From NCBI RefSeq assembly GCF_009377205.1, contig NZ_VJZE01000012.1, positions 1-58,034 of the forward strand: a stretch of 58,034 nucleotides of DNA, written 5' to 3'. Source of the DNA: Streptomyces phyllanthi (GTDB lineage Bacteria > Actinomycetota > Actinomycetes > Streptomycetales > Streptomycetaceae). Of the stretch, positions 81 to 36,504 are shown piece after piece. A program made the position numbers and the translations under genes. Under the pieces are notes generated by a model. It saw only the letters and a list, made by a program, of their open reading frames with translations, had not been told where the DNA came from and did no database searches. The first letter of the stretch is position 1; the number at the start of each line of letters is the position of its first letter.

Positions 81-94
81 GGGCCGAACGGCCC
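81..94. promoter_or_regulatory. DevR/OsdR-type palindrome
   Basis: GGGCCGAACGGCCC, a perfect 6+2+6 palindrome (7+2+7 if 80-95 is counted). It lies 78-91 bases upstream of a minus-strand ATG at positions 3-1, the same offset as at other genes here. It may therefore serve a leftward gene whose body lies outside the window; only its start codon would be visible, and no clear ribosome binding site precedes it. Confidence 0.6.
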
Positions 95-189
95 CATCGA
101 TTCAGGCACAGCGGCCCCACGGGTCCCGCCCGTGCGGGGGCCGGATGGTGCAGGACCGACCGCCCGTCGGCCCTGTCCGCTGCCAGTGC

Positions 190-632
190 CGCTGTCGGAG
201 GCGACCGAGAACGACGGCGCCCGCGGGCACATGGCCGACGCCACGCCCGCCAGATAGCCGATGAGCACGGGCCGGGACAGCAGATCCGCGAGGAAGCGGC
301 CGCGTCGCCCGGGCCACCACGTTCAGCGGCCCCACCGCGATCGCGAGTGTGGCCGGCGTCGCGTACCGGGCCGGCTCTCCGGCGGCGAGCGGTGCGACCA
401 CCGTCGCCGTCATCAGCGCGGTCGTCGACTCCGGGCCGACCGAGAGCAGGCGGGAAGAGCCGAGCAGGGCGTACACGACGAGCGCGGGCAGGATCGCCCG
501 CAGCCCGGTGACCGGCGGCGGCCCGGCCACCCCCGCGTACGCCATCACCCGGGGAATGAGCCGGCGGCCATCGTCACCCCGGCCAGGATGTCGCCCTTTC
601 AGCCACGAGTACCGGTAGCCCCGTTGCCCCAC
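190..632 (-). pseudogene. Decayed SulP-family anion permease (N-terminal part)
   Basis: Minus-strand translation gives recognisable pieces of the N-terminal membrane domain of a SulP sulfate/anion permease, spread over different frames. They are WLKG, then GDILAGVTMAAG in another frame, then LIPRVMAYAGVAG and YALLGSSRLLSVGPESTTAL back in the first frame, and near 270-290 FLADLLSRPVLIGYLAGVA in a third frame. At least three frame changes are needed. All later membrane helices and the STAS domain are missing, so the gene cannot be functional. SulP proteins carry sulfate or bicarbonate. The identification rests on motif recognition only. Confidence 0.75.
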
Positions 633-650
633 CGCATGTCACCGCCCACA

Positions 651-684
651 GGGTCCACTGGCCCCGGTCGGGGACCTGCGGCCC
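651..684. promoter_or_regulatory. Tandem DevR/OsdR-type boxes upstream of the first universal stress gene
   Basis: Two sites match GGGNCNNNNGNCCC: GGGTCCACTGGCCC at 651-664 and GGGACCTGCGGCCC at 671-684. They start 20 bases apart, about two helical turns, and end 61-82 bases before the stress-protein ATG at 746. Tandem boxes suggest cooperative binding of the response regulator encoded at 16988-17680 (inference). Confidence 0.7.
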
Positions 685-745
685 CCTGCGCCACCGGCCC
701 CCGCACCACCACGCTGGACTCGAATCCCCGATGAGGAGGCAGAAC

Positions 746-1618
746 ATGACCCGCAGTGTCGTCATAGGTCTCGACGGCTCGGCCGAGAGCCGTGCCGCGG
801 CGGAGTGGGCGGCCCGCGAGGCGAAGCGGCGCTTTCTGCCGCTCAAGCTCGTCCACGTCTGGGAGGCGGTCCCCGAGCCCTTGGCCCTGGCGCAGCTCCT
901 CGGTGCCGATACACGTCAGCAGTGGAGCGAGCGAAGCGAGATGGGGGGTATCCCGCGCGAGGTGGTCGAAGGGCTCAGGTCGCGTCACCCTGGACTGGAC
1001 GTGACCGTGGAGCAGGTCTCCGGCCGGCCCGCCGAGATGCTGACCCAGGCGGCGAAGGACGCCGAGCTACTGGTCCTCGGCTCCCGGGGACTGAGCGGCA
1101 TCGGAGGATTCCTCGTCGGCTCCGTGGGCCAGGCCGTCGTGGCGCACGCCGAGCAGCCTGTGGTTCTGGTTCGTGCCGGCGAGCAGGCCGTCGGCGGGCC
1201 CGTCGTCCTCGGGCTCGACACCGACCACCCCGACGAAACGGTGATCGCCCACGCCTTCGAGGCGGCTGCCCGCCGTGTGACACCCCTGCTGGTTGTCCAT
1301 GCCTGGGCCCTGCCGCCGTACTTCGCCTACGGCCTGCCCGCCGACCCCGAGCTCAACGCCGTGCTGGGCAAGCAGGACGCTGCCACGCTGGCCGAGGTGC
1401 TGCACCGCTGGAAGGAGAAGTACCCGGCCGTCCAGGTCATCGAGGAGTCCCGTTCCGGTAGTCCCGCCGTTCAACTGGTCGAGGCCTCCCGCGAGGCGTC
1501 CCTGCTCGTCGTCGGCCGCCGGATCCGCCACAGCCCGCTCGGCGCCCACATCGGCCCCGTGACGCACGCCGTGCTGCACCACGCCACCGCCCCCGTCGCC
1601 GTCGTCGCACACGACTGA
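746..1618 (+). CDS. Tandem universal stress protein (USP 1)
   Basis: 290-residue cytoplasmic protein with two UspA domains (about 3-143 and 152-290). Domain 1 has a complete ATP-binding motif G112-x2-G115-x9-G125-S126. Domain 2 has a degenerate GRRIRHSPLGAHIGP segment. ATG 746 is chosen because GAGGAGG (733-739) sits 6 bases before it; an in-frame ATG at 731 overlaps that site. Tandem USPs with ATP motifs are hallmark members of the mycobacterial DosR regulon and of the S. coelicolor OsdR regulon. Here the gene follows two palindromic boxes. The next USP gene begins 32 bases downstream, so the two are probably cotranscribed. The exact role of the family is unknown. Confidence 0.93.
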   Translation: MTRSVVIGLDGSAESRAAAEWAAREAKRRFLPLKLVHVWEAVPEPLALAQLLGADTRQQWSERSEMGGIPREVVEGLRSRHPGLDVTVEQVSGRPAEMLTQAAKDAELLVLGSRGLSGIGGFLVGSVGQAVVAHAEQPVVLVRAGEQAVGGPVVLGLDTDHPDETVIAHAFEAAARRVTPLLVVHAWALPPYFAYGLPADPELNAVLGKQDAATLAEVLHRWKEKYPAVQVIEESRSGSPAVQLVEASREASLLVVGRRIRHSPLGAHIGPVTHAVLHHATAPVAVVAHD

Positions 1619-1650
1619 CGCGCCGCCGAGACCATCGAGGAGAAACCACC

Positions 1651-4784: not shown

Positions 4785-4822
4785 GGACCGGTCGGCCCGG
4801 CGACACGGGGGCCGATCGGCGT
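4785..4822. promoter_or_regulatory. Probable DevR-type boxes upstream of USP 3
   Basis: GGACCGGTCGGCCC (4785-4798, one mismatch) and GGGCCGATCGGCGT (4809-4822, two mismatches on the right arm) are 24 bases apart. They are about 165-200 bases before the USP 3 start, so a long leader is implied if they are used. The 268-base gap 4720-4987 also holds a pyrimidine-rich run (4724-4766). Confidence 0.45.
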
Positions 4823-4987
4823 TCCGATGGGCACTGTCGGCCCCTGCCCGGAGGGGCCGTGGACGACGAGTATCCGCAGTGGAGCCGCCGCGGGATCGAC
4901 GCCCAGTCGGCCGACGGCGAGCTTGCCCACGGTTCTCGGTCCCACGAGGGCTGCGTACCCCGCGCACGAAGAGAAGGGAACAAGACA

Positions 4988-5818
4988 ATGACTCTCCGTC
5001 ATGTGGCCGTCGGTGTGGACGGCTCGCTGGTAGCCGTACGGGCGCTCGACCGGGCCACCGAGGAAGCGGTGCGCCGCGGCACCGCGTTGCGCATCGTGTA
5101 CGCCGTGGCCGACCGCGACGAGGCGGGGCCGGTTCTGGCATCGGCGGCCTCACGGGTCCACGAGCGTCATCCCGGCCTGCCGGTGGAGACCCGGGCCGTG
5201 GAGGACGGCGCCGTGCGGGCGCTGGCACGGGAGAGCGAGAGCGCCGTCCTCACCGTGGTGGGCACCCGGGGGCTCGGCGGTGTCACCGGCCTGCTGGCGG
5301 GCGCGGTGAGTCAGCGGCTGGCCGCGCACACGCACGGTCCGCTGCTCGTCGTCCGCGGGGACCACCCCTGCGACAACGGGCGCGAAGTGCTGCTGGGCCT
5401 GGAGAGCGACGCCGACGCGGACGCGGCCGCCTACGCCTTCCAGGAAGCCGAGCGGCGCGGGACCCGGCTGCACGTCCTGCACTCCCGGGCGCACCGGCAC
5501 ACCACACCCGAACTGCCCTCGCTGGTCCCCGCCACGAGCCCCGGCCAGCAGCGCCAGGCCCGCGACGACCGGGCGGAGGAAGCCGTCGCGCGGTTCAGCA
5601 TCGCCCGACTGCGGGAGGCGTACCCCGAGGTCGACGTCGACAGCCGCACGGTGCGTACCGGCCCGGGCCACGCTCTCCTGGCGGCGACCCGCGAGGCCGG
5701 CGTCGTGATCATCGGCGCGCACCGCCGCACGGGCCGGGTCGGTCCGCAGCTCGGTCCGGTCGCGCACGCCCTGCTGCACCACTCCCACTGCCCGGTGGTG
5801 CTGGTGCCGGCGACCTGA
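4988..5818 (+). CDS. Tandem universal stress protein (USP 3)
   Basis: 276 residues, two UspA domains (about 3-123 and 132-276). The nucleotide motif is slightly degenerate: G92-x2-G95-x9-G105 is followed by Ala instead of Ser/Thr. It is shorter than the other four paralogs here because the insert after strand 2 is reduced. ATG 4988 follows an AGAAGGGAA ribosome binding site. Context, boxes and downstream phosphoketolase fit an oxygen-limitation regulon. ATP binding may be weaker than in the paralogs (inference). Confidence 0.92.
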   Translation: MTLRHVAVGVDGSLVAVRALDRATEEAVRRGTALRIVYAVADRDEAGPVLASAASRVHERHPGLPVETRAVEDGAVRALARESESAVLTVVGTRGLGGVTGLLAGAVSQRLAAHTHGPLLVVRGDHPCDNGREVLLGLESDADADAAAYAFQEAERRGTRLHVLHSRAHRHTTPELPSLVPATSPGQQRQARDDRAEEAVARFSIARLREAYPEVDVDSRTVRTGPGHALLAATREAGVVIIGAHRRTGRVGPQLGPVAHALLHHSHCPVVLVPAT

Positions 5819-5843
5819 TGGCGGGCACCGCGGTGAAGCGGAT

Positions 5844-5866
5844 GGCCCGGTCGGCCCTGTCGGCCC
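5844..5866. promoter_or_regulatory. Overlapping DevR-type boxes upstream of phosphoketolase
   Basis: GGCCCGGTCGGCCC (5844-5857) and GGCCCTGTCGGCCC (5853-5866) each have one mismatch to GGGNCNNNNGNCCC. They end 81-90 bases before the phosphoketolase ATG. Confidence 0.55.
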
Positions 5867-5947: not shown

Positions 5948-8329
5948 ATGCCCGCCGACACGCAGCAGGCCCCCGGCGTACTCACGGACGAGGAACTCAA
6001 CGCCCTGGACGCCCACTGGCGCGCCGCGAACTACCTGGCCGTCGGCCAGATCTACCTCGTGGCCAACCCCCTGCTGACCGAACCGCTGCGACCCGAACAC
6101 GTCAAGCCGCGCCTCCTCGGCCACTGGGGAACCTCCCCGGGCCTGAACCTGGTCCACACCCACCTCAACCGCGTCATCAAGACCCGCGGCCTTGACGCCC
6201 TGTGCGTCTGGGGCCCCGGCCACGGCGGACCCGCCGTCCTCGCCAACTCCTGGCTGGAAGGCTCGTACACCGAGACCTACCCGGACATCACCCGGGACGC
6301 CGACGGCATGGCCCGGCTGTTCAAGCAGTTCTCCTTTCCCGGCGGCGTGCCCAGCCACGTCGCCCCGGAGACACCGGGCTCCATCCACGAGGGCGGTGAA
6401 CTCGGCTACGCGCTCTCGCACGCCTACGGTGCCGCCCTCGACAACCCCGGCCTGGTCGTCACCTGCGTGATCGGCGACGGTGAGGCGGAGACCGGTCCGC
6501 TGGCCGCGTCCTGGCACTCCAACAAGTTCCTCGACCCCGTCCACGACGGCGCCGTCCTGCCGGTCCTGCACCTCAACGGCTACAAGATCGCCAACCCGAC
6601 GGTACTCGCCCGCCTCCCCGAGTCCGAGCTCGACGAGCTCCTGCGCGGCTACGGCCACGACCCCGTCCACGTCACCGGCGACGACCCGGCGGCCGTCCAC
6701 CAGGCCATGGCGCGCGCCATGGACACGGCGCTGGACCGCGTCGCCGCGATCCAGCGCGCCGCACGCGAGGACGGCGCGACCGAGCGCCCCCGCTGGCCGG
6801 TGATCGTGCTGCGCACTCCGAAGGGCTGGACCGGTCCGGCGGAGGTCGACGGCCTGCCGGTGGAGGGCACCTGGCGCGCCCACCAGGTGCCGCTGGCCGC
6901 CGTCCGCGACAACCCCGAGCACCTGCGGCAGCTGGAGGCCTGGCTGCGCTCCTACCGGCCCGAGGAACTGTTCGACGAGCACGGCAGCCCCCGCCCCCAG
7001 GTGCTGGACTGCGTCCCGGACGGTGCCCGACGGCTCGGCGCCACCCCGCACGCCAACGGGGGGCTGCTGCTGCGCGAACTGCCCCTGCCGCCTCTGGAGA
7101 AGTACGCGGTCCCGGTCGACAAACCCGGCGCCACCCTGCACGAGCCCACCCGCGTCCTCGGCCAGTTGCTGGAAGACGTCATGCGGAACACCGCCGACCG
7201 GCGCGACTTCCGTCTCGTCGGCCCCGACGAGACCGCCTCCAACCGGCTCCAGGCCGTCTACGCGGCCAGCGGCAAGGCGTGGCAGGCAGACACCCTCGAC
7301 GTCGACGAGCACCTCGACCGGCACGGCCGCGTGATGGAGATCCTGTCCGAACACACCTGCCAGGGCTGGCTGGAGGGCTACCTCCTCACCGGCCGCCACG
7401 GACTGTTCTCCTGCTACGAGGCCTTCGTCCATATCGTCGACTCGATGGTCAACCAGCACACCAAGTGGCTGCGCGTCACCCGCCGCCTGCCCTGGCGCGC
7501 CCCCATCGCCTCCCTCAACTACCTGCTGACCTCGCACGTCTGGCGTCAGGACCACAACGGCTTCTCCCACCAGGACCCCGGCTTCGTCGACCACATCCTC
7601 AACAAGAGTCCGGAGGCCGTACGGGTCTACCTGCCGCCGGACGCCAACACACTGCTCTCCGTGGCCGACCACGCGCTGCGCAGCCGCGACTACGTGAACG
7701 TGATCGTGGCCGGCAAACAGCCCTGCTTCGACTGGCTGTCGATGGAGCAGGCCCGCGTCCACTGCGCGCGCGGCGCCGGGATCTGGGACTGGGCCGGCAG
7801 TGAGAGCGGCGGCGAGCCCGACGTGGTCCTGGCCTGCGCGGGCGATGTGCCGACCCAGGAGGTGCTGGCAGCCGCCCAGTTGCTGCGCCGCCATCTGCCC
7901 GAGCCGGCCGTGCGGGTCGTCAACGTCGTCGACATCGCCCGTCTGATGCCGAGCGAGGAACACCCGCACGGGATGAGCGACTTCGAGTACGACGGCCTGT
8001 TCACCCCGGACAAGCCGGTGATCTTCGCCTACCACGGCTACCCGTGGCTGATCCACCGCCTGGCCTACCGCCGCACCGGCCACCCGCACCTTCATGTGCG
8101 GGGCTACAAGGAGATCGGCACCACGACCACGCCCTTCGACATGGTCGTCCGTAACGACCTGGACCGCTACCGCCTGGTCATGGACGTCATCGACCGTGTC
8201 CCCGGGCTCGCGGTGCGCGCCGCGGCCGTACGCCAGCGCATGGAGGACGCCCGCCTGCGTCACCACGACTGGATCCGTGTCCACGGGACCGACCTGCCGG
8301 AGGTCGCCGACTGGTCCTGGGACGGCTGA
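5948..8329 (+). CDS. xfp: Phosphoketolase (xylulose-5-P / fructose-6-P)
   Basis: 793-residue thiamine diphosphate enzyme, full family length. It cleaves xylulose 5-phosphate (or fructose 6-phosphate) with phosphate to acetyl phosphate plus glyceraldehyde 3-phosphate (or erythrose 4-phosphate), giving acetyl phosphate without NADH production. Visible signatures are [28 protein letters not shown], the cofactor motif GDGEAETGP at 176-184 and [17 protein letters not shown] just upstream supports ATG 5948. The gene has its own palindromic boxes and stands alone between USP 3 and a DoxX-like gene. No acetate kinase gene is in the window, so conversion of acetyl phosphate to ATP would need a gene elsewhere. 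Confidence 0.95.
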
Positions 8330-8355
8330 CCGACGCCAACGGGTCCGGACACAGA

Positions 8356-8390
8356 GGGCCGTTCGGCCCGCTGTCCGGGCCCTGCAGCCC
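8356..8390. promoter_or_regulatory. Tandem DevR/OsdR-type boxes upstream of the DoxX-like gene
   Basis: GGGCCGTTCGGCCC (8356-8369) is a perfect-arm palindrome. GGGCCCTGCAGCCC (8377-8390) has one mismatch and starts 21 bases later. They end 91-112 bases before the ATG at 8482. Confidence 0.72.
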
Positions 8391-8481: not shown

Positions 8482-9105
8482 ATGGCAGTGCACGGTCACC
8501 CCCACCGATACCGCGGGTTCCGCTTCCCGTCCCTGAGCAAGGCCGGGACCGCTACCGCGTCCGCCGACGCGACGACAGCCGCCGCGACGGCGACCCGCGC
8601 GTACGTGTTCGCCGGTCTGCGTCTGCTGACCGGCTTCGTCTTCCTGTGGGCGTTCCTGGACAAGACGTTCGGCTTCGGCTACGCGACCCCGTCCGGCAAG
8701 GGCTGGATCGACGGCGGCTCGCCGACCAAGGGCTTCCTCAGCGGCGTGGCCGTCGGGCCGATGGAGTCCACCTTCCACGACTGGGCCGGGGCCGCCTGGG
8801 CGAACTGGCTGTTCATGCTCGGCCTGGGCGGCATCGGCCTCGCCCTGATCGCCGGCATCGGCCTGCGGCTCGCAGCGGTCGCCGGCACGGCGATGATGGC
8901 GCTGATGTGGATCGCGGAGTGGCCGCCGGCCAGGCACCTGTCCGACGGATCGGCGAGCATGTCGACCAACCCGTTCGCCGACTACCACCTCGTCTACGCC
9001 GTCGTCCTCATCGCGCTTGCGGCGGCGGGCGCCGGCGCCACCTGGGGTCTGGGCAGGGCTTGGGCGCGGCTGCCCTTCGTCAGCCGCAACCGCTGGCTCC
9101 TCTGA
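8482..9105 (+). CDS. DoxX/DoxD-like integral membrane protein
   Basis: 207 residues with about four hydrophobic helices, including roughly 42-62 (AYVFAGLRLLTGFVFLWAFL), two between 108 and 150, and one near 168-190. It resembles the DoxX/DoxD family, whose founding member is the small subunit of an archaeal thiosulfate:quinone oxidoreductase; many actinobacterial members have unknown function. The N-terminal 40 residues are polar and Ala/Thr-rich. ATG 8482 is preferred because AAAGGGA (8467-8473) is correctly spaced; an ATG at 8473 overlaps it. A strong terminator follows. A link to quinone or redox balance at low oxygen is inference. Confidence 0.8.
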   Translation: MAVHGHPHRYRGFRFPSLSKAGTATASADATTAAATATRAYVFAGLRLLTGFVFLWAFLDKTFGFGYATPSGKGWIDGGSPTKGFLSGVAVGPMESTFHDWAGAAWANWLFMLGLGGIGLALIAGIGLRLAAVAGTAMMALMWIAEWPPARHLSDGSASMSTNPFADYHLVYAVVLIALAAAGAGATWGLGRAWARLPFVSRNRWLL

Positions 9106-9160: not shown

Positions 9161-9181
9161 TTGCCTGTGCTCTGCCTGACA

Positions 9182-9195
9182 GGGACCTACGGCCC
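9182..9195. promoter_or_regulatory. DevR/OsdR-type box upstream of pyruvate formate-lyase
   Basis: GGGACCTACGGCCC matches GGGNCNNNNGNCCC exactly, just past the preceding terminator and 120 bases before the ATG at 9316. Confidence 0.65.
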
Positions 9196-9315
9196 GGCAC
9201 GAGAGGGACGGGTGGCGCGTCCCCGGTGCGCCCAGAGGCCCTCCCCGAAGGCATCGCGAGCGACAAGCATCAAGAGCGAAGAAGTTCCACGGGAAGAGTG
9301 AGGGAGAGACCGGCG

Positions 9316-11577
9316 ATGACGGCAACGGTGACAGCTGGACCCCGGGTGGCGACCGAGGCATGGCGGGGCTTCGCCGGTACGCTCTGGCGGGACCAGGTCG
9401 ACGTACGCGACTTCATCCAGGCCAACTACACGCCGTACGAAGGTGATGCGGCGTTCCTGGCCGGACCGACCCAGCGCACGCTCACCGTCTGGGGCAAGGT
9501 TGCCGCCTTGTTCCCCGAGGAGCGGCGGCGGGGCATCCTCGATGTCGACGTGGTCCTGCCCTCCACCATCACCTCGCACCGGCCGGGCTTCATCGACCGC
9601 GACCGCGAACTGATCGTCGGCCTACAGACCGACGCCCCGCTGCGGCGGGCGATCATGCCCAATGGCGGCCTGCGGATGGTGGAGAACGGGCTGAAGGCGT
9701 ACGGCTACAGGGCCGACCCCTTCGTCACGCGCGTCTTCAGCACCTACCGCAAGACCCACAACGACGGCGTCTTCGACGCCTACACCCCCGAGATGCGCGC
9801 CGCCCGTAAGGCCGGGATCATCACCGGACTGCCGGACGCCTACGGCCGCGGCCGGATCATCGGCGACTACCGGCGCGTCGCGCTGTACGGCACCGACCGG
9901 CTGATCGAGGCCAAGCGCGCCGAGCGGGCCCTGCTGGACGCGCGGCCCTCCGGCCCGGACGTCATCCGCGATCGGGAGGAGCTGGCCGAACAGATCAAGG
10001 CGCTGGCCGAGCTGACCCGGATGGCGGACTCGTACGGCTGCGACGTCACTCGGCCCGCGGCGACCGCGCACGAAGCGGTGCAGTGGCTCTACCTCGGTTT
10101 CCTGGCGGCGGTGAAGGAGCAGAACGGCGCCGCGATGTCGCTGGGCCGCACCTCCACCTTCCTGGACGTCTACCTCCAGCGCGACCTGGAGGAGGGGACG
10201 ATCGACGAGACGCGGGCCCAGGAACTGATCGACGACTTCGTCATCAAGCTGCGGATCGTCCGCTTCCTGCGCACTCCCGAGTACGACGCGCTGTTCTCCG
10301 GCGACCCCACCTGGGTGACGGAGTCCATCGGCGGCATCGGCACCGACGGCCGCACCCTGGTCACCCGCACCTCCTTCCGCTTCCTGCAGACCCTCTACAA
10401 CCTCGGCCCGGCCCCCGAGCCCAACCTGACCGTCCTGTGGTCGCCGCGGCTGCCCGAGGGCTTCAAGCGGTTCTGCGCGCAGGTCTCCATCGACACCAGC
10501 GCCATCCAGTACGAGTCCGACGACCTGATGCGCCCGCGCACCGGCGACGACACGGCGATCGCCTGCTGTGTCTCGGCGATGGCGGTGGGCCGGCAGATGC
10601 AGTTCTTCGGCGCGCGGGTCAACCTGGCCAAGGCGCTGCTGTACGCGATCAACGGCGGCCGGGACGAGATGACCGGCGAGCAGATCGCGCCCGAGGCGCC
10701 CGCGCTGACCGGCGAGTACCTGGACCACGAGGGGTTGTCGGCGGCGTACGACCGCATGCTCGACTGGCTGGCGGCCACCTACGTCAACGCGCTCAACGTC
10801 ATCCACTACATGCACGACAAGTACGCCTACGAGCGCATCGAGATGGCGCTGCACGACTATCCGGTGCACCGTTTCATGGCGTGCGGCATCGCCGGCCTCT
10901 CGGTGGCGGCAGACAGCCTCTCGGCCGCCAAGTACGCCCGCGTCAAGGTCATCCGGGATGCGACCGGACTGGCCGTCGACTACGAGGTCGAGGGCGAGTA
11001 CCCGGCGTACGGCAACAACGACGACCGCGCCGACGCCATCGCGGCCGACCTGGTGGAGTCCTTCATGGCGAAGGTGCGCCGGCACCCCACGTACCGGGAC
11101 GCCGAGCACACCCAGTCGGTGCTGACCATCACCTCGAACGTGGTGTACGGCAAGCACACAGGGAACACGCCCGACGGCCGCCGCGCCGGTGCCCCGTTCG
11201 CACCTGGCGCCAACCCGATGAACGGCCGTGACCGGCACGGGGTGGCCGCCTCGGCCCTGTCGGTGGCCAAGCTCCCGTACGAGCAGGCCCGCGACGGCAT
11301 CTCGCTCACGACGACGATCACGCCCGAGGGCCTGGGCCACGACCCGGCCGAGCGAGCAGGTCATCTGGTCGGCATCCTGGACGCGTACACGGCGTCCGGC
11401 GGCTTCCACATGAACGTCAACGTCCTGGACCGGGCGACGCTCGAGGACGCCATGGAGCACCCGGAGAAGTACCCCGAGCTGACGGTCCGGGTCTCCGGGT
11501 ACGCCGTCAACTTCGTCCGCCTGACCCGCGAGCAGCAGCTCGACGTGATCAGCCGCACCTTCCACGGATCGCTGTGA
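9316..11577 (+). CDS. pflB: Pyruvate formate-lyase (glycyl radical enzyme)
   Basis: 753 residues, close to the 759 of E. coli PflB. It converts pyruvate + CoA to acetyl-CoA + formate anaerobically. Both catalytic features are present: adjacent cysteines C417-C418 in IACCVSAM, and the C-terminal glycyl radical loop RVSGYAVNF with the radical Gly at 728. The double cysteine and the loop sequence indicate true pyruvate formate-lyase rather than a diol dehydratase or other glycyl radical homolog. AGGGAGA at 9301-9307 supports ATG 9316. The stop overlaps the activase GTG by four bases. The enzyme is destroyed by oxygen in its active form, so use would be limited to anoxic conditions. Confidence 0.95.
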
Positions 11578-16636: not shown

Positions 16637-16727
16637 GGGAGAGACCTCCGGATACGGGATCAGCGGGCCGTGGACGATGGCGCCGGCCCTCGTCCCGAGC
16701 TTCACGACCACGCGGCCGCGGCTCCAG

Positions 16728-16741
16728 GGGCCGATGGTCCC
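16728..16741. promoter_or_regulatory. DevR/OsdR-type box upstream of USP 4
   Basis: GGGCCGATGGTCCC, exact match to GGGNCNNNNGNCCC, in the divergent region between USP 4 and the response regulator. Confidence 0.65.
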
Positions 16742-16865
16742 GAGTTGGACGGCATGGTCCTCACGGTGAGGGCCCGCCTGGTCTCCTCCGCGTTCGGCGG
16801 CGCCCGGCGCCGGGTAGCCGATCAGAACCGGTACGCGTGGGTACGCGGGAACAGCAGAGCGAAAA

Positions 16866-16893
16866 GGGCCGGTCGGCCCTGGCCGTTCGGCCC
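16866..16893. promoter_or_regulatory. Tandem DevR/OsdR-type boxes upstream of the response regulator
   Basis: GGGCCGGTCGGCCC (16866-16879) abuts TGGCCGTTCGGCCC (16880-16893). They end 94-108 bases before the regulator ATG at 16988. Autoregulation is the simplest reading. The rest of 16637-16987 holds no gene; a short CCCGCC/GGCGGG inverted repeat sits at about 16931-16947. Confidence 0.72.
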
Positions 16894-16987
16894 GGAATCG
16901 CGCAGGATCTGAGACAGGGAAGGACCGGTCCCGCCCATCTGGCGGGTTCCGGTTCCGGAGACAGACGACACAGGACAGGAGCCGTCG

Positions 16988-17680
16988 ATGGCGGACAGCG
17001 AGCGACCCGGTACCGACAACCCGATCCGGGTCTTCCTGCTGGACGACCACGAGGTGGTACGCCGCGGGGTGCGCGATCTGCTGAACGACGAGCCGGACAT
17101 CAGTGTGATCGGCGAGGCCGGCACCGTCGAGCAGGCCCTGGTGCGTGTTCCCGCGCTGCGTCCGCAGGTGGCCGTGCTCGATGTGCGCCTGCCCGACGGA
17201 GACGGCGTGACAGTCTGCCGCGAGCTGCGCTCACGTATGCCGGAGCTTGCCTGCCTGATGCTGACCTCGTTCGACGACGAGGAGGCCCTGCTCGACTCGA
17301 TCATGGCCGGAGCCTCCGGATACGTGCTGAAGCAGATCCAGGGCACGGACCTGGTGTCGGCGGTCCGCACGGTGGCCGCCGGCCAGTCCCTGCTCGACCC
17401 GAGCGCCACCGCCAAGGTGATGGCCCGGCTGCGCCAGGACCAGCAGCCGGAGGAGGAGCCGGACGCCCTGCCGGGGCTCACCGCCCGGGAGCGGGAGATT
17501 CTGGCCCTGATCGGCGAGGGCCTGACCAACCGTCAGATCGGCCAGCGACTCTACCTCGCGGAGAAGACGGTCAAGAACCACATCTCCCGCCTGCTCGCCA
17601 AGCTCGGCGTGGAGCGGCGCATCCAGGCCGCGGTCATCGCCACGCAGGCCCAGGACCGGCTGCGGCAAGAAGGACGCTGA
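16988..17680 (+). CDS. osdR: DevR/DosR/OsdR-type response regulator
   Basis: 230-residue NarL/LuxR-family response regulator. The receiver domain (13-130) has acidic pair D19-D20, phospho-acceptor D65 in [10 protein letters not shown]93 and K115. The LuxR helix-turn-helix is at 165-220 with [16 protein letters not shown] as recognition region, nearly the same as recalled for mycobacterial DosR. It is therefore the likely reader of the palindromes in this window (inference). No histidine kinase gene is adjacent, although S. coelicolor pairs OsdR with OsdK; the kinase must be elsewhere or have been lost. Tandem boxes in its promoter suggest autoregulation. Confidence 0.9.
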
Positions 17681-18840: not shown

Positions 18841-18919
18841 GGCGAGGACCTCCTTGGGGGGAAACGGGGGGCCTCGAGCGGCCCGTTGTCACGGTGTCAC
18901 CGGAGCGGACGCGGCAGCA

Positions 18920-18955
18920 GGGCCGAACGGCCCGAGGCCGGGGAGCATACGGCCC
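18920..18955. promoter_or_regulatory. DevR/OsdR-type boxes upstream of USP 5
   Basis: GGGCCGAACGGCCC (18920-18933, perfect arms) and GGAGCATACGGCCC (18942-18955, one mismatch) start 22 bases apart. Confidence 0.7.
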
Positions 18956-19635: not shown

Positions 19636-19728
19636 CTGTATCCCTCCGGGTGCGACGGATCTCGTCATCGACCTACGGTGACGGATCGGCGATCGATGGC
19701 GGCAGAGACCAACGGGGTCGTCCTGTGT

Positions 19729-19742
19729 GGGCCGATCGGCCC
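19729..19742. promoter_or_regulatory. DevR/OsdR-type box upstream of the Rv1733c-like gene
   Basis: GGGCCGATCGGCCC, symmetric at all 14 positions, 94-107 bases upstream of the leftward ATG at 19635. Confidence 0.72.
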
Positions 19743-19819
19743 CATTGCGAGACCCGGCCGGGCCCCGGCGGCCGAAGCGTCGCCGGGCACAATGCCGTTC
19801 GAGGGAGGTCGGTGACATG

Positions 19820-21444: not shown

Positions 21445-21467
21445 CTCGGAGTGGTGGTGGGGTGCGG

Positions 21468-21503
21468 GGGCCGAACGTCCCGATCGAAGGGGCCAGTGGG
21501 CCC
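21468..21503. promoter_or_regulatory. Tandem DevR/OsdR-type boxes upstream of methyltransferase-cupin
   Basis: GGGCCGAACGTCCC (21468-21481) and GGGCCAGTGGGCCC (21490-21503) both match GGGNCNNNNGNCCC exactly and start 22 bases apart. Confidence 0.7.
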
Positions 21504-23183: not shown

Positions 23184-23960
23184 GCGCGTCTTTCTGTGAG
23201 CGGGTCGCGGCATGCAGCCGGTGGGCGTGGGGCCGGATGGCACGCCGTGCTCGACCGGGCCGCGCCGACGGAGGGAGTGAAGGCTTGTCGGGCTGGGGCC
23301 GACGAAGGTCTGTCACCGCCGTGACGGGTGCACAAGCGCCGGCCATCGATCGGTGCAGACAGCCGCGGGCCCGGTGAGCCTCAAGTCGCAGAGGAGGGAG
23401 AGCTCTTCGCGTTCGAGGTGCAGGACAAGCGTGTGACCGCAGGGAATTGACATCGCGCCGGTCCCTGTCGCGTGACGAGTCGATGCTCCCTCTCGTCGTC
23501 GGCTTCCGAGGCCACCGCGCCGGTTCTGCCCCTGCGAGTGAACGCTACGGTCCGTTCCCGGTGCGACGCCCGGTCCGAAGCGCCTGGTGTGGGTGGGCCG
23601 GATGGACCAGAACATCGCTCGTGGTCCGGGACCAACAGCCCCCGCCAAGGGACCGTTCGGCCCGAGCGCACCTTTCCGCGGTCCGGTGATGCTGCTTCCC
23701 GAGATCGAACGGGAGGAGGCCACGGGCCGCCGCCTCCATCTGCCGGCTGCGCGTTCTCCATTCCAGAGGCCGCAGTTGGAAGCGGTGTCCTCCCGGCTCG
23801 GTCACCGTCCGGCCGCCTGCCACCCGTCCCGGGCGGCCGGACGCGCCCTCGGCACGCTCGGCGCGATGCGCGGCCTTCTCCTGCCTCACCTCGGCGCCAC
23901 CGAGCACGTCTTGCGACTCGCCGTGCCCGGGCCTGACGTGCGCCTGCCCGTCTGGCAGCC
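23184..23960. other. Long gap without a convincing gene
   Basis: Open frames exist here but none shows a recognisable domain. A palindrome GGACCGTTCGGCCC (23650-23663, one mismatch) is present some 460 bases from genes on either side. The plus frame from 23687 to 24057 is arginine-rich and looks non-coding. This may be another deletion scar with a stranded regulatory site. Confidence 0.4.
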
Positions 23961-30804: not shown

Positions 30805-30805
30805 G

Positions 30806-33800
30806 TCAGTACTCCACATCCTGCGAGCGACGGCGGATGACGGTGACCTCGTCGCGCTGGTTGCCGGTCGGGCCGTAGTAGTTGAAGGCGTAGGTGAACT
30901 GGGCGTAGCCGCCCGCGAGGTGGGTGGGCTTGAGCAGCAGCCTGGTGAGCGAGTTGTGGATGCCGCCGCGCCTGCCGCTGACCTCGGTCTTCGGGACGTT
31001 CACGTTGCGGTCCTGGGCGTGGTACATGTACACGGTGCCCTCAGGCATGCGGTGGGTGACCACCGCCCGGGCGGCGACGACGCCGTTGCGGTTGTACGCC
31101 TCGATCCACTCGTTGTCCTTCACGCCGATCTTCTCGGCGTCCTCCAAGGACATCCAGATCGTGGGTCCGCCACGGGACAGGTCGAGCATGTACTTGTTGT
31201 CCTGGTAGTTGGAGTGGATGGACCACTTGGAGTGCGGGGTCAGATATCGGACGGTGACCTCCGCCCGGTCCTTGTCGCGCAGGTGCTCGTCGCTGTAGTG
31301 CCGAGGGGTGTTCAACGGGGGCCGGTAGGCGGGGAGTTGCTCGCCGAGTTCGGCGATCCAGTCGTGCTGGACGAAGAAGTGCTGACGGCCGGTGAGGGTG
31401 TGCCAGGGCTTCTTGTGCTCGGTGTTGATGACGAACGGTGAGTAGCGACGCCCACCGGTCTCGCTGCCCGACCACTCGTACGACGTCATCACCGAGCGGG
31501 GCTGGGTGCGGGTGTCGGCGAAGGTGATCCGCTCCGCCTCGCGCTCGGAGGCGAGTTCCACCAGGCCCTCGCTGCCGGTCTGCTGCTCCAGTGCGCGGAA
31601 CCCCTCGGTGGCCAGGCGTCCGTTGGTGGTGCCGGACAGGGCGAGGATCGCGTCGCACATGTTGCTCGCGGTGGCGAGCGAGGGCCGTCCGGCGGCGACT
31701 CCGTCCCTGACGGTGCCGTTGCGGCGCCGGAGGTCGTCGATCTCCGGGCCCACCTGGACGGAGACACCCTTGGTCGTGGTGCCCAGCTTGTCCAGGAGCG
31801 GGCCGACCGCGCGCATCTTCTGCGCGACCGCCCCGTAGTCCCGTTCGATGACGACCAGCTTGGGCATGGTCCGGCCCGGGACCGGCTCGCACTCGCCGGT
31901 CTTCCAGTCCCGTACGACCCCACCGGGCTGGGCGAGTTCGTCGGGGGTGTCGTGCAGCAGCGGCACGGCGAGGACGTCGGTGCGGGTGCCCAGGTGATCG
32001 GCTGCCAGTTCGCTGAACTTGTCGGCGATCGTGAGGAAGGTGTCGTAGTCGGTGCGGGCCTGCCAGGGCGGGGCGATGGCCGGGGTGAAGGCGTGCACGA
32101 AGGGGTGCATGTCGGTCGACGACAGGTCGTCCTTCTCGTACCAGGTCGCGGCCGGCAGGACGACGTCGGCGAGGAGGCCGGTGGACGTCATCCGGAAGTC
32201 CATGGTGACCAGCAGGTCGAGCTTGCCCTCGGGGGCCTCCTCCCGCCACACCACGTCCTTCGGCCGGTGCTCGGGCGGGGTCTCCTCCGAGCGGACGGCC
32301 GCGTCGGTGCCCAGCAGGTGCCGCAGGAAGTACTCGTTGCCCTTGCCGGAGGAGCCCAGCAGGTTGGCCCGCCACACGGTCAGTACGCGGGGGAAGTTGG
32401 CCGGGTCGTCGGGGTCCTCGGCGGCGAACCGCAGCCGCCCGGACTTCAGTTCGTCGACGATGTGCTCGGCGACCTCACGCCCTTGAGCCCTCGCCTCGTC
32501 GGTCAGGTCGAGGGGGTTGCGGTTGAAGCCGGGATGCCCCGGGGTCCAGCCCAGCCGCACGGCCTGCGCCAGGCAGTCCGCGAAGCCCTTGCCCTGGAAC
32601 CTCCCCTTCCCCAGCGGGGAGGCCAGCTCCTCGGGGCCGAACGCCTCGTAGCGCCACTGGTCGGAGTTCAGGTACCAGTAGGAGGTGCCCGCCATGTGCC
32701 GGGTGGGCCGCTGCCAGTCGAAGGCGAAGGAGAGGTGCTGCTGTCCGGTGACGGGGCGGACCTTCTCCTGGCCGACGTAGTGCGCCCAGCCGCCGCCGTT
32801 GACGCCCTGGCAGCCGGTCATGGTGGTCAGGGCCAGGAAGGCGCGGTAGATGGTGTCGGAGTGGAACCAGTGGTTGGTGCCGGCACCCAGCGCGATCATC
32901 GAACGGCCCTGGGTGCGCTCGGCGTTGCGGGCGAACTCCCGGGCGATCCGGGCCGCCTGCTCGGCGGGCACGGAGGTGATGGTCTCCTGCCAGGCCGGGG
33001 TGTACGGCTCGGACGCGTCCTCGTACGACGACGGCCAGCTGCCCGGCAGACCCGGCCGCTCCACCCCGTACTGCGCCAGCATCAGGTCGAAGACAGTGGT
33101 CACGAGCCGCCCGCCGATCCGGCGGACCGGAACGCCCCGGACCATGACCGAACCGCCCTCGGTGTCGCCCTCGTCGAACCGGGGCAGCGCGATCCCGACG
33201 CTCTCCTCGGCCCGCTCCAGCAGGCTCAACTCCGGGACGACATCGCCCAGTTCGAGGTTCCAGCGGCCTCGCCCGGCCTCCCCCCACCGGAAGCCGAGCG
33301 AGCCGCCGGGGACCACCGGTTCGCCGGTGGCCCGGTCCAGAAGGACGGTCTTGAACTCCGCGTTCTCTTCGGTCCCCTCCTCCCGGCCGAGGTCGGCCGC
33401 CGTGAGGAACCCGTCCGGGACGAGACCGTGTTCGTGCTCGCGCAAGGTCACCAGGAACGGCGCGTCGGTGAACTTCCGCAGGTAGTCCTGGAAGTACGGC
33501 ACTTCGCGGTCGACCAGGAACTCGCGCAGGATCACGTGCCCCATGGCCATCGCCAGCGCCCCGTCCGTACCGGGGTGGGGGGCGAGCCACTCGTCGGCGT
33601 GCTTGACGTTGTCGGCGTAGTCGGGACTCACCGCGACGACCTTGGTGCCGTTGTAGCGGGTCTCGGTCAGGAAGTGCGCGTCCGGCGTGCGGGTCACCGG
33701 GATGTTGGAGCCCCACATGATCAGATAGCCGGCGTTCCACCAGTCCGCCGCCTCCGGCACATCCGTCTGGTCGCCGAAGACCTGCGGCGAGGCGATCGGC

Positions 33801-34513
33801 AGATCGGCGTACCAGTCGTAGAACGACAGCAGCGTGCCGCCGATCAGCGAGTGGAACCGTGCCCCCGCCGCGAACGACGCCATCGACATCGCCGGGATCG
33901 GAGAGAAGCCCGCGACGCGGTCGGGGCCGTACGTCTTGACGGTGTGCACCTGGGCGGCGGCGATCAGTTCGCTCACCTCGTCCCAGTCGGCGCGCACCAG
34001 GCCACCCTTGCCGCGAGCCCGCTTGTAGGCGCGGGCCTTCGCCGGGTCGGACGTGATCTCGGCCCACGCGGCCACCGGGTCGCCCAGCCGCTTGCGGGCC
34101 TCGCGCCACAGCTTGAGCAGCGTGCCGCGGACGTACGGGTAGCGGACCCGGCTGGGGGAGTAGGTGTACCAGGAGAACGACGCCCCGCGCGGGCAGCCGC
34201 GCGGCTCGTACTCGGGGCAGTCCGCGCCGATGGACGGGTAGTCGGTGGCCTGGTGCTCCCAGGTGATGATGCCGTCCTTGACGTACACCATCCACGAGCA
34301 CGAGCCGGTGCAGTTCACGCCGTGCGTGGAGCGCACCACCTTGTCGTGGGCCCACCGGTCCCGGTAGAAGCCCTCCCACTGCTGATCGCCCGTGCCGAAA
34401 ACGGCACGTCCGTCGGCGGACACCTCACGGCGCGTCAGCAGCCGACGGGCGGCCAGCGGCCACCCTTCACCGGTGCGCGACTCCCGCTGCCGTGCGTTCT
34501 GATCGTTCTCCAT
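30806..34513 (-). CDS. narG: Respiratory nitrate reductase alpha subunit
   Basis: 1235-residue catalytic subunit reducing nitrate to nitrite at a bis-MGD molybdenum centre on the cytoplasmic face. The FS0 cluster ligands are H64, C68, C72 and C107 (HGVNCTGSC, CPRG), spaced as in E. coli NarG. D237 in WYADLP aligns by offset with the Mo-ligating Asp222 of E. coli. There is no twin-arginine signal with a cleavable peptide. Full family length with no frameshift. First gene of narGHJI-VKOR; palindromic boxes lie 40-130 bases upstream. Confidence 0.97.
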   Translation of the reverse strand: MENDQNARQRESRTGEGWPLAARRLLTRREVSADGRAVFGTGDQQWEGFYRDRWAHDKVVRSTHGVNCTGSCSWMVYVKDGIITWEHQATDYPSIGADCPEYEPRGCPRGASFSWYTYSPSRVRYPYVRGTLLKLWREARKRLGDPVAAWAEITSDPAKARAYKRARGKGGLVRADWDEVSELIAAAQVHTVKTYGPDRVAGFSPIPAMSMASFAAGARFHSLIGGTLLSFYDWYADLPIASPQVFGDQTDVPEAADWWNAGYLIMWGSNIPVTRTPDAHFLTETRYNGTKVVAVSPDYADNVKHADEWLAPHPGTDGALAMAMGHVILREFLVDREVPYFQDYLRKFTDAPFLVTLREHEHGLVPDGFLTAADLGREEGTEENAEFKTVLLDRATGEPVVPGGSLGFRWGEAGRGRWNLELGDVVPELSLLERAEESVGIALPRFDEGDTEGGSVMVRGVPVRRIGGRLVTTVFDLMLAQYGVERPGLPGSWPSSYEDASEPYTPAWQETITSVPAEQAARIAREFARNAERTQGRSMIALGAGTNHWFHSDTIYRAFLALTTMTGCQGVNGGGWAHYVGQEKVRPVTGQQHLSFAFDWQRPTRHMAGTSYWYLNSDQWRYEAFGPEELASPLGKGRFQGKGFADCLAQAVRLGWTPGHPGFNRNPLDLTDEARAQGREVAEHIVDELKSGRLRFAAEDPDDPANFPRVLTVWRANLLGSSGKGNEYFLRHLLGTDAAVRSEETPPEHRPKDVVWREEAPEGKLDLLVTMDFRMTSTGLLADVVLPAATWYEKDDLSSTDMHPFVHAFTPAIAPPWQARTDYDTFLTIADKFSELAADHLGTRTDVLAVPLLHDTPDELAQPGGVVRDWKTGECEPVPGRTMPKLVVIERDYGAVAQKMRAVGPLLDKLGTTTKGVSVQVGPEIDDLRRRNGTVRDGVAAGRPSLATASNMCDAILALSGTTNGRLATEGFRALEQQTGSEGLVELASEREAERITFADTRTQPRSVMTSYEWSGSETGGRRYSPFVINTEHKKPWHTLTGRQHFFVQHDWIAELGEQLPAYRPPLNTPRHYSDEHLRDKDRAEVTVRYLTPHSKWSIHSNYQDNKYMLDLSRGGPTIWMSLEDAEKIGVKDNEWIEAYNRNGVVAARAVVTHRMPEGTVYMYHAQDRNVNVPKTEVSGRRGGIHNSLTRLLLKPTHLAGGYAQFTYAFNYYGPTGNQRDEVTVIRRRSQDVEY

Positions 34514-34552
34514 GACCCGGAACGCTATGCGGCGCACCACGTCCCCCACCTG

Positions 34553-34621
34553 GGGCCGGCGGTCCCTGACGGCCGGCCTTCCGGCCCCACATGGCCGGCC
34601 GCAATAGGGCCCAATGGTCCC
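34553..34621. promoter_or_regulatory. DevR/OsdR-type boxes upstream of narG
   Basis: GGGCCGGCGGTCCC (34553-34566) matches the pattern exactly. GGCCCAATGGTCCC (34608-34621) has one mismatch. A weaker GGTCCGGTCGGCCG lies 22 bases beyond at 34630-34643. All are in the divergent gap between narG and the hemerythrin gene. Confidence 0.6.
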
Positions 34622-34828: not shown

Positions 34829-34850
34829 GCATCCCTCTTCCCGGCGTCGA

Positions 34851-34910
34851 CTCCCGGCAGGCCCCGGCAGGCCCCAGCAGGCCCCGGGAGGCCCCGGAAT
34901 GCCCCGGGAT
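34851..34910 (+). repeat. 10-base tandem repeat upstream of the hemerythrin gene
   Basis: Six head-to-tail 10-base units: CTCCCGGCAG, GCCCCGGCAG, GCCCCAGCAG, GCCCCGGGAG, GCCCCGGAAT and GCCCCGGGAT. The period equals one turn of DNA. The array ends 59 bases before the hemerythrin ATG. Confidence 0.8.
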
Positions 34911-34969
34911 GTCATACCCACCCGCACCGGTCGGCCGAGCCGACCGTGACACCTGCTGGAGGCACCGTC

Positions 34970-35803
34970 ATGAGCGTGCTCACCCTCGCCTCGGCCCCCG
35001 AGGACGCCACAGCCCTCCAGGCCGCCGAGGCACATCACGCCCGCCTGGCCGGGGAGCTGGCCGGACGGGTGAGGATGCTGCTCACCGCCGTGGACCGCGA
35101 CCCGAGCACCGCGGAGAAGATCCACACCGGGCTCGTGGCCTTCTGCGACCGCTCGCTGCTGCCGCACGCCGCAGCCGAGGAGGCCGCGCTCTACCCCGCA
35201 GCCCACGGCGTGCCCGAGGCCCGCCTGCTCATCGAGAGCCTCATCGGCGAACACCGCTGCCTCACCGCGCTCGTCGACGCCCTGCGTGCCGCACCCGGCC
35301 CGGCGGGCGCGGCGGCGGACGCCCGGGCCCTGCAGGTGCTCTTCGAAGAACACATGGCCAAGGAGAACGGCCTCGTACTGCCGCTGCTCGCCATGACGCC
35401 GGAAGTTTCCCTGGCCTCGCTACTGACGGACATGCACCACCGGCTTGCGAACGACACGGGCAGCAACAGCGCCCAAGACCACCACGACACCCAGGAAGGA
35501 CAGGACATGCAAGAAGGGCAGATCGAGGAGAGCGGCGGCTGCGGCGGAGTCTGCGGTTGCGGCGGCGCGGAGGAGACGGCCGAGCCCGAACTGGATGTGC
35601 GGGAGGTTCCGCACGCCCTGCGCCACGCCACGGTCTTCGGAGCCCTGGACGCCGTCCCGGCCGGCACCGCGATGGTGCTGGTCGCGCCGCACGACCCGCT
35701 GCCGCTGCTCGCGCAGATCGAACAGCGCAGCCCCGGCACCTTCGCCGTGGAGTACCTGGAACGCGGCCCCGCGACCTGGCGGTTGAGGCTCAGCCACCGC
35801 TGA
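34970..35803 (+). CDS. Hemerythrin-DUF2249 fusion protein
   Basis: 277 residues. A four-helix HHE hemerythrin domain (about 15-145) has candidate di-iron ligands H22/H23, H66, E70, H95, H128 and E132. Next comes a flexible polar linker with a Gly/Cys cluster (CGGVCGCGG, about 185-195), then a DUF2249 domain (about 205-277) with the usual DVREVPHALRH start. Di-iron HHE proteins bind oxygen or nitric oxide. DUF2249 often neighbours denitrification genes. GGAGG before ATG 34970 fixes the start. It diverges from narG, so nitric oxide or oxygen sensing or scavenging is a reasonable inference. Confidence 0.88.
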   Translation: MSVLTLASAPEDATALQAAEAHHARLAGELAGRVRMLLTAVDRDPSTAEKIHTGLVAFCDRSLLPHAAAEEAALYPAAHGVPEARLLIESLIGEHRCLTALVDALRAAPGPAGAAADARALQVLFEEHMAKENGLVLPLLAMTPEVSLASLLTDMHHRLANDTGSNSAQDHHDTQEGQDMQEGQIEESGGCGGVCGCGGAEETAEPELDVREVPHALRHATVFGALDAVPAGTAMVLVAPHDPLPLLAQIEQRSPGTFAVEYLERGPATWRLRLSHR

Positions 35804-35841
35804 CCCGAAGCCCCACCTCAAGGAAAGAAGGACAACACATC

Positions 35842-36342
35842 ATGGACGCATCGCACCGTCGCGCCGGCACCCTGATCGCCGCGGTCGCCACAACCCTGGG
35901 CGTCGCCGGCCCGGTCATGGTGCTGCGTGGTCGCAGCGGCAGAAAGGAGATCCGCACCGAGCTGGCCGCTCAGAAGATCACCTTCCCCCATCACGGGCTG
36001 CCTGCCGACCTCGCCGCCTACGCCGGCCGACGCGTGGAAACCGGCCCCGAAGCGCATGCCTACGCCGAGTTCATCAAGGGCAATCTCGCCCATGCCACCG
36101 GCGGCCGCACCTACGCCGAGATCACCACCGAGCTGCACGCCGCCGGAGGCGACGACGAGAAGCTCTCCAAACTGCGCCAGACCGCGTTCATGGGCCAGAC
36201 CCTGCGCGGTTCTCTGCTCTCCGCCTACCAGGCATGGCACCTCACCACCCTGGTCATGGGCCTCGGTGCCCTGCTGACCGGTGCCGGAGCGGCCCTGATG
36301 GCCACCGCGAGAACCCTGGGCGCGGATACGCGCTGCTCCTGA
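35842..36342 (+). CDS. Small membrane protein of unknown function
   Basis: 166 residues: an N-terminal helix (about 8-27, TLIAAVATTLGVAGPVMVL), a central soluble domain of about 90 residues (LAAYAGRRVETGPEAHAYAEF), and a C-terminal helix (about 132-157, LTTLVMGLGALLTGAGAAL). AGGAAAGAAGG precedes the ATG. It is 38 bases behind the hemerythrin gene and probably in the same operon. I do not recognise a named family. Confidence 0.75.
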   Translation: MDASHRRAGTLIAAVATTLGVAGPVMVLRGRSGRKEIRTELAAQKITFPHHGLPADLAAYAGRRVETGPEAHAYAEFIKGNLAHATGGRTYAEITTELHAAGGDDEKLSKLRQTAFMGQTLRGSLLSAYQAWHLTTLVMGLGALLTGAGAALMATARTLGADTRCS

Positions 36343-36456
36343 CCACCGGTCATGCGGCATCCCCCTCGGTCAGCCCCGCCGCGATCACGGTAACCGCGCT
36401 GCGTGCAGACGACTGGCTCAGGGGCCGTGCGCCTGGAGCACCGCGTGCGTTCGGAC

Positions 36457-36504
36457 GGGCCGTTCGGCCCTGGCGCGACGGTCGGACCCAGGGCCCGTCG
36501 GCCC
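36457..36504. promoter_or_regulatory. DevR/OsdR-type boxes of the nitrite reductase operon
   Basis: GGGCCGTTCGGCCC (36457-36470) and GGGCCCGTCGGCCC (36491-36504) both match exactly. They lie 81-128 bases before a possible GTG start at 36585, the usual offset here, but 245-292 bases before the radical SAM gene. Confidence 0.7.

Follow-up and report, generated by a model that had tools for sequence, protein, structure and literature searches.

The window analysed here is a stretch of 58,034 nucleotides from Streptomyces phyllanthi (contig NZ_VJZE01000012.1, designated C33), part of a draft genome of 10.27 Mb in 939 contigs. Its first 36.6 kb hold an island of genes for universal stress proteins (USPs), phosphoketolase, pyruvate formate-lyase (PFL), nitrate reductase and nitrite reductase, together with a gene for a response regulator of the OsdR (DevR) type, and a palindromic box stands upstream of many of them. 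The palindrome in the window equals the published 16-nt OsdR consensus, AGGGCCGATCGGCCCT (PMC5069765; here and below, published work is cited for what its accessible main text and tables state). Judging from the sequence, phosphorylated OsdR very probably binds this box and activates the island genes together at low oxygen. Read from the DNA are the box and its conservation, its confinement to promoters within the island, its place before osdR, and two fixed spacings between the box and a putative -10 element in about half of the boxed promoters. Binding in this species, activation rather than repression, an OsdK-like kinase on another contig (C93) as phosphate donor for both OsdR copies, and low oxygen or nitric oxide (NO) as the signal are what we infer. 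A sequence-only reading of the window had already proposed a low-oxygen island under DevR/OsdR control. This regulon reading stands with four corrections: a loose match to the palindrome is no evidence by itself, the oxygen signal is carried over from relatives, a second OsdR may act, and the kinase gene lies outside the island.

We compared the frequency of the strict palindrome, GGGCCGNNCGGCCC, with 100 dinucleotide shuffles of the window. The six strict sites that had been listed, at 81, 8356, 16866, 18920, 19729 and 36457, are all present, against a shuffle mean of 0.19; the largest shuffle held two and none held six. The hand estimate of about 0.3 expected sites was slightly high. A loose form, GGGNCNNNNGNCCC, matched 20 times in the window where 9.9 matches are expected, an approximately twofold enrichment, and the earlier figure of about 16 chance sites does not agree with this expectation. 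A related loose form, GGGNCSNNSGNCCC, was not enriched across the genome (420 matches versus 484 for the reversed pattern). Loose sites had been read as marks of the regulon; their excess in the window is real, but a loose match alone says little, and we rejected GGGNC-N4-GNCCC sites as stand-alone evidence.

We therefore scored boxes with a weight matrix built from the 25 distinct S. coelicolor OsdR sites in Table 1 of Urem et al. 2016 (PMC5069765), without any site from the present genome. Genes were called with a simple codon-usage caller, and start sites are approximate. At a threshold of at least 12 bits the window contains 14 sites. Every one is intergenic and lies between 1 and 36,600, where there is no genic site of this strength; the reversed window contains two, and positions 36,601 to 58,034 contain none. 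A further 228 kb of the genome in 13 stretches (nine at contig heads, four near loci of interest) holds three genic and no intergenic sites of this strength. The claim that promoters between 43 and 58 kb lack the motif held as well, the lone loose match there (45338) lying within a gene and scoring -11 bits. Sites had been placed mostly 75-130 bases from start codons. Eight of the 14 are 80-172 bp from a called start; those at 81, 23649, 36457, 36491, 34553 and 16728 deviate. The wording that the palindrome marks most promoters was loose, given that 11 of the 33 called genes through the radical-SAM gene have a box of at least 12 bits within 320 bp.

Across the whole genome the strict palindrome occurs 42 times, compared with 30 for the reversed pattern. 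Nineteen of the 42 copies fall in five loci: the window, C388, C444 near a second osdR gene, C44, and one place on C93. This grouping was drawn up after the site positions had been seen. A motif equally common within genes and in unrelated promoters had been named as a refuting result, and here the copies divide: none of the 19 in these loci is genic and 17 lie within 320 bp upstream of a called start, versus 17 genic, three upstream and three elsewhere for the remaining 23, which is about the background expectation. The four other loci carry genes similar to those of the island, for USP, pyruvate phosphate dikinase, AdhE, PPOX, nitroreductase, zinc alcohol dehydrogenase, CBS and PPK2 proteins. 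On C93 there is a second nar gene set with an MFS transporter, a hemerythrin protein and a PPOX gene.

The box is conserved in relatives. We took the best 80 named OsdR loci by match to the regulator, the closest of which are from Streptomyces, and several family labels of box-bearing genes in them were assigned by eye from N-terminal sequence. Every one of these loci holds at least one site of at least 13 bits; in total there are 287 such sites, 257 of them intergenic in sequence that is 82% genic, and the reversed control has 20. A box of at least 12 bits precedes the osdR-like gene in 66 of the 79 loci where this gene has its own promoter, as it precedes osdR in the window. Together with the match to the published consensus, this bears out the assignment of the palindrome to the DevR/OsdR type. 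Among 295 genomes of the genus, at set E-values, the PFL gene pflB had matches in 106 and the radical-SAM gene in 35. For each we examined the promoters of the best 30 loci, which included the window copy, and then left that copy out of the counts. A box of at least 10 bits lies within 420 bp upstream in 23 of 29 pflB orthologues from other genomes. The same holds for 17 of 22 radical-SAM homologues at 78% identity or more and for none of the seven at 64-67%. The reversed control gave one site in the pflB set and two in the radical-SAM set, one of them in the window's own copy. In a survey of 37 genomes of the genus, A/T-centred strict boxes numbered 127 in the 25 genomes with an OsdR of at least 70% identity (control 43), and 111 in 24 genomes (control 41) when S. 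phyllanthi was left out. Near osdR, 325 of 929 genes have a box. Since this overall share is already high, orthologue fractions for single families in these loci are weak evidence; examples are 12 of 15 for gene 8482-9105 of the island, 5 of 15 for phosphoketolase, and 0 of 2 each for carbamate kinase and the USP gene at 4988.

We aligned boxes of at least 14 bits upstream of called starts, from S. phyllanthi and the 80 loci, on the box centre. The form TANNNT showed no enrichment at the spacings described here and was dropped as a model of the -10 element. What recurs is a hexamer with A as its second and T as its sixth base, placed at exactly +30 or +31 from the box centre: 54 and 53 cases, respectively, in 271 promoters from other genomes, with a background of 5.2 +- 2.4 per offset. 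There is another peak at +53 (22 cases) and +52 (16), and peaks at -37/-38 are those expected of divergent promoters. The 107 cases at 30/31 from other genomes served to train a -10-like matrix; those among them from promoters other than osdR read roughly GA-N-G-C-T-G-G. In S. phyllanthi, which was outside the training set, this matrix found the element at 30/31 in eight of 42 oriented box-promoters and at 52/53 in another eight. Together these make 16 of 42, whereas in 120 control offset sets the count averaged 1.5 and never exceeded 6; for S. phyllanthi 15 is the safer count because the narG case falls within the reading frame. In the other genomes 134 of 271 promoters have the element in either register where 14.5 are expected, a comparison that is partly circular, as the 30/31 cases trained the matrix and the 52/53 cases were not selected. 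The signal is strongest at osdR promoters (49 of 66) and persists without them (62 of 226), with in-register elements also at USP, PPOX, alcohol dehydrogenase, cNMP-like and phosphoketolase promoters. It accompanies the box in 16 of the 22 radical-SAM promoters at 78% identity or more and in 7 of the 29 pflB promoters.

The long register has a feature of its own. In its 29 promoters from other genomes a second, degenerate box stands at +21/+22, with a mean score at +22 of -7.5 bits versus -20.6 +- 3.0 over the flanks. The commonest spacing between neighbouring boxes is likewise 22 bp (15 of 117 secondary sites; the reversed control has 17 secondary sites in all). The strong box occupies the place of the -35 element in 105 promoters from other genomes and the upstream place in 29. 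Based on the two registers in about half of the boxed promoters, we propose a promoter layout like that of DevR. As a separate observation, the predicted -10 element of the PPOX gene on C93 (GACGAT, 8626-8631, in the stretch 8588-8640) ends six bases before the start codon, which suggests that this transcript may be leaderless.

The regulator at 16988-17680 had been described as having a DosR-like recognition helix, and its EKTVKN stretch is indeed identical to that of Mycobacterium tuberculosis DevR. Over 207 aligned residues, 128 (62%) are identical to DevR (3c3w), and the protein has complete receiver and helix-turn-helix (GerE) domains. There is a second OsdR gene at C444:36007-36696 whose product is 88% identical to the window copy; each gene is preceded by a strong box with CAGGAT as its predicted -10 element at +30. 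We found a single OsdK-like kinase in the genome, at C93:1314-3029, beside neither osdR gene. Its GAF domain has DevS-type GAF structures as best matches. The histidine of its HHPPM stretch, which we take to be the haem ligand, aligns with DevS. It is likely that the two OsdR regulators share this kinase. By a motif screen, 52 of the 80 named loci encode a DevS-sized kinase no more than six genes away from osdR, and copy numbers of OsdR and OsdK are sometimes unequal (3 and 2 in genome G007, with thresholds that differ between the two). Directly upstream of the osdK-like gene (stretch 85-3029 of C93) is a gene for glyceraldehyde-3-phosphate dehydrogenase; in S. lividans such a gene, gap3, is co-expressed with osdR (PMC6302529).

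Published work on the relatives bears on how the box might function. S. coelicolor OsdR binds it in electrophoretic mobility shift assays, binding is lost on mutation, and promoter-probe experiments give further support; three tested target promoters were poorly or not active in an osdR mutant (PMC5069765). A review states that OsdRK controls narGHJI2 in that species (PMC8139620). In S. lividans, genes for nar2, PFL, a fragment of its activase, pyruvate phosphate dikinase, USP, alcohol dehydrogenase and PPOX rise with osdR (PMC6302529, Table 2). M. tuberculosis DevR promoters have close-packed sites, the one proximal to the start overlapping -35, with cooperative binding to a weak second site (PMC3029386). 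Should the element here be a -10, the box would be centred near -42 and overlie -35, as expected of a class II activator and as reported for DevR; we therefore propose that OsdR activates. In our model the OsdK-like kinase would donate phosphate to both OsdR copies, and phosphorylated OsdR would bind the box where a -35 element would otherwise be (register 30/31). In the long register, the strong box 22 bp upstream would help a second dimer onto the weak -35 site. Under oxygen shortage OsdR would then bring RNA polymerase to the island genes for universal stress proteins, phosphoketolase, PFL, nitrate reductase and nitrite reductase.

The box upstream of the nitrite reductase (NirK) operon would extend this model. 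With NirK box-driven, the regulon would produce NO, a gas reportedly sensed by the DevS (OsdK) kinase, closing a feedback loop. For S. coelicolor, NO binding by DevS has been reported, along with activation of devR and narG2 by DevR and a switching-off of the kinase as NO rises (PMC10552308). As NO is thus reported to inhibit DevS, the loop from NirK through NO would be negative. A broader proposal, to which we give somewhat less than an even chance, has three parts: that in a group of Streptomyces the OsdR box drives NirK and nitrate reductase so that the regulon makes the gas its kinase senses, that a two-register promoter code akin to that of mycobacterial DevR predicts which genes respond, and that two OsdR proteins sharing one OsdK split the outputs.

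We weighed other explanations of the palindrome. That it is a meaningless by-product of high G+C composition has almost no probability. The modest genome-wide excess of the strict pattern over its reversed control and the lack of any for the loose form would fit such a by-product, but the excess of strict boxes is confined to a few loci, is never genic there (0 of 19), is conserved across species and stands in register with -10-like elements. Composition is refuted for the strict sites by the shuffles, the 13 other stretches and the genome-wide division into genic and upstream copies; it may hold for weak loose sites such as 2786 and 45338. It is also very improbable that another regulator, a Crp-like cNMP protein or a different NarL-family response regulator, binds the box. 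The second osdR locus does include a cNMP-domain gene, a similar-looking family (by eye) is found among the box-bearing genes of relatives, and the genome has 92 matches to the regulator protein. However, the next near-full-length match after the two OsdR copies is only 44% identical, OsdR binding to the box and its loss on mutation are published (PMC5069765), and the box stands before osdR itself in most loci.

A more substantial rival, rather unlikely in our judgement, lets the C444 copy of OsdR, or both copies interchangeably, act at the boxes, with the window copy minor or specialised. The presence of two OsdR genes for one OsdK-like kinase and their shared promoter design fit this view. 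On the other hand, nothing shows the window copy to be inactive, and its receiver and helix-turn-helix domains are complete, its EKTVKN stretch is unaltered and its promoter contains a full box. As for the element at +30/31 and +52/53, we consider it distinctly improbable that it is no -10 at all and either belongs to the operator as a conserved portion or persists from shared ancestry. Its first base is rarely T, unlike textbook -10 elements, and orthologous osdR promoters supply many of the cases. It nevertheless recurs in unrelated families (USP, PPOX, alcohol dehydrogenase, cNMP-like, phosphoketolase and small families), and the mirror peaks fit divergent promoters. The A and T of the element, hexamer positions 2 and 6, are the two bases that sigma-70-type factors flip.

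Several results weigh against control of the island by OsdR through the box as we propose it. Twelve genomes without a close OsdR still have 34 A/T-centred strict boxes versus 23 in the control, and the co-occurrence of OsdR and box across genomes, S. phyllanthi excluded, is a modest difference (p 0.014). No box of at least 10 bits was found in the 4.5 kb around osdK on C93, and the pairing of this kinase with OsdR is an assumption. Much of the -10 signal comes from osdR and PPOX promoters. No in-register -10 was found in 137 of the 271 boxed promoters, in any osdK (0/7), AdhE (0/4) or Rv1733c-like (0/5) promoter, or, at 4.5 bits or more, at the window boxes 9181, 18919, 19728, 21467, 36456 and 36490. 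The in-register hexamer of narG (AACGAT, 34502-34507) was rejected as an artefact within the narG reading frame.

Table 1. OsdR boxes, predicted -10 elements and selected genes of the island (window coordinates; + offsets are from the box centre).
Feature	Position	Strand	Remarks
OsdR box GGGGCCGAACGGCCCC	80..95		18.0 bits, strict; about 659 bp from nearest called start, near contig end, no target assigned
OsdR box	4808..4823		12.6 bits; upstream of universal stress protein gene 4988-5818 (Pfam Usp); predicted -10 GAGTAT at +52
OsdR box	5843..5858		13.4 bits; upstream of phosphoketolase gene 5948-8329; predicted -10 GAGAGT at +30
OsdR box	8355..8370		18.5 bits, strict; upstream of gene 8482-9105; predicted -10 GACATT at +52, weak second box at +22
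OsdR box AGGGACCTACGGCCCG	9181..9196		13.1 bits; upstream of pflB 9346-11577, then pflA 11574-12320; no in-register -10
OsdR box	16727..16742		12.3 bits; upstream of USP gene 15725-16636 (-); predicted -10 GAAGCT 16698-16703
OsdR box AGGGCCGGTCGGCCCT	16865..16880		20.5 bits, strict; upstream of osdR, distance about 115
Predicted -10 CAGGAT of osdR	16903..16908	+	30 bp from box centre
osdR/devR orthologue, NarL-family response regulator	16988..17680	+	no kinase gene adjoining
OsdR box	18919..18934		18.5 bits, strict; upstream of USP gene 17944-18840 (-)
OsdR box	19728..19743		17.0 bits, strict; upstream of Rv1733c-family gene 19054-19635 (-)
OsdR box	21467..21482		15.4 bits; upstream of methyltransferase gene 20550-21395 (-); loose box 22 bp further up, 21490
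OsdR box	23649..23664		12.8 bits; about 465 bp from feoA 24121-24426; target uncertain
OsdR box	34552..34567		12.0 bits; upstream of narGHJI (narG about 30806-34540, -); 20 bp from called narG start
OsdR box	36456..36471		18.5 bits, strict; upstream of radical-SAM/NirK operon; 285 bp from radical-SAM start
Second OsdR box	36490..36505		13.4 bits; 34 bp beyond 36456; 251 bp from radical-SAM start
TIGR04053 radical SAM/SPASM protein gene	36749..38029	+	head of nitrite reductase operon
897-aa protein, copper nitrite reductase (NirK-type) domain at C-terminal end (residues about 635-896)	38026..40719	+	copper-ligand positions aligned

Individual rows of Table 1 call for comment. No family was found for gene 8482-9105. 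For the minus-strand USP gene downstream of box 16728, one of the 16 in-register cases, the -10 match prompted a second look at the start, and we replaced the called start, 16711, with an ATG at 16636 that has a better ribosome-binding site and begins the USP domain; the distance from the box changes accordingly from 24 bp to about 98 bp. Rv1733c, the namesake of the family at 19054-19635, is a DosR-regulon gene of M. tuberculosis. Nearer to feoAB than box 23649 are three loose boxes 22 bp apart (23973, 23995 and 24017), which score only 2-5 bits. We discarded iron-box-like sites in two promoters, that of the methyltransferase gene (14 of 19 matches) and that of feoA (13 of 19), as they do not exceed the shuffled maxima of 12-14. 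Outside the island, a palindrome of this kind, TTAGGTTGGCCTAACCATA (46660-46678), matches the iron-box consensus at 16 of 19 positions, compared with the same shuffled maxima, and lies upstream of a FecCD-type transporter gene (45543-46613). At the second box of the nitrite reductase operon (36490) a -10-like CATGCT stands at +54, one base off register, and relatives have a box near the same place.

In the NirK-type domain, the His, Cys and Met positions that we take to be copper ligands align with those of the solved NirK 3wia on inspection by eye. The protein scores below the TIGR02376 equivalog cut-off of NCBIfam (156 versus 296 bits). It also has a cupredoxin-like stretch, and its first half weakly matches a cbb3 oxidase subunit. 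The leader of the operon contains a hairpin (36670-36714) with arms of about 10-12 bp and a conserved loop, CTGCCCTGACTC, which aligned in 19 of the 23 loci at 78% radical-SAM identity or more, the window's own copy included. The hairpin has no Rfam match above gathering and little covariation. Only one of 14 predicted pairs has both sides changed in a sequence, and we do not claim a proven RNA element; the hairpin could be an attenuator or a protein-binding site. The leader also includes a reading frame of 55 codons (36585-36752) that has a strong ribosome-binding site and overlaps the radical-SAM start. In many relatives, similar frames that begin V-Y/H-D are found at about this position before the radical-SAM gene. 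The frame may be coding or a by-product of the hairpin.

The box and the OsdR regulon are already known, and this island is a predicted further instance. S. coelicolor OsdR (SCO0204)/OsdK, alias DevR/DevS, has the same box, the same type of regulator and a box before osdR, and its predicted targets are likewise clustered USP, nar, PPOX, nitroreductase and alcohol dehydrogenase genes (PMC5069765). Unlike the arrangement in S. coelicolor, osdR is duplicated here and stands apart from the sole osdK-like gene found. Boxes here precede phosphoketolase, pflB and the NirK operon, none of which is among the predicted targets in Table 1 of PMC5069765, and its main text, supplements aside, does not describe two fixed spacings to a -10. 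The S. lividans group co-expressed with osdR is defined by expression and shares nar2, PFL and the activase fragment, pyruvate phosphate dikinase, USP, alcohol dehydrogenase and PPOX; unlike the island, it has no NirK and no phosphoketolase in Table 2 (PMC6302529). The DosR/DevR regulon of M. tuberculosis has a homologous regulator and kinase GAF domain and an Rv1733c-family gene under a box. Its promoters have close-packed sites with the proximal one over -35 (PMC3029386), a layout that those here may share; organism and gene set differ. The division of strong boxes between the two places (105 and 29) is a count over the other Streptomyces-type genomes. Our search of accessible main texts, supplements and most subscription papers aside, turned up neither the two spacings nor an OsdR regulon that includes a NirK operon or phosphoketolase.

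With fixed spacings, OsdR targets and their start sites in the many osdR-bearing Streptomyces genomes could be called by a promoter rule in place of a loose palindrome search, and soil Streptomyces would offer a convenient system for studying the DevR-type promoter mechanism. The box upstream of the NirK operon leads to a concrete prediction on NO production and sensing in these bacteria. Feedback of NirK-derived NO on the kinase would be the most interesting prediction of this analysis.

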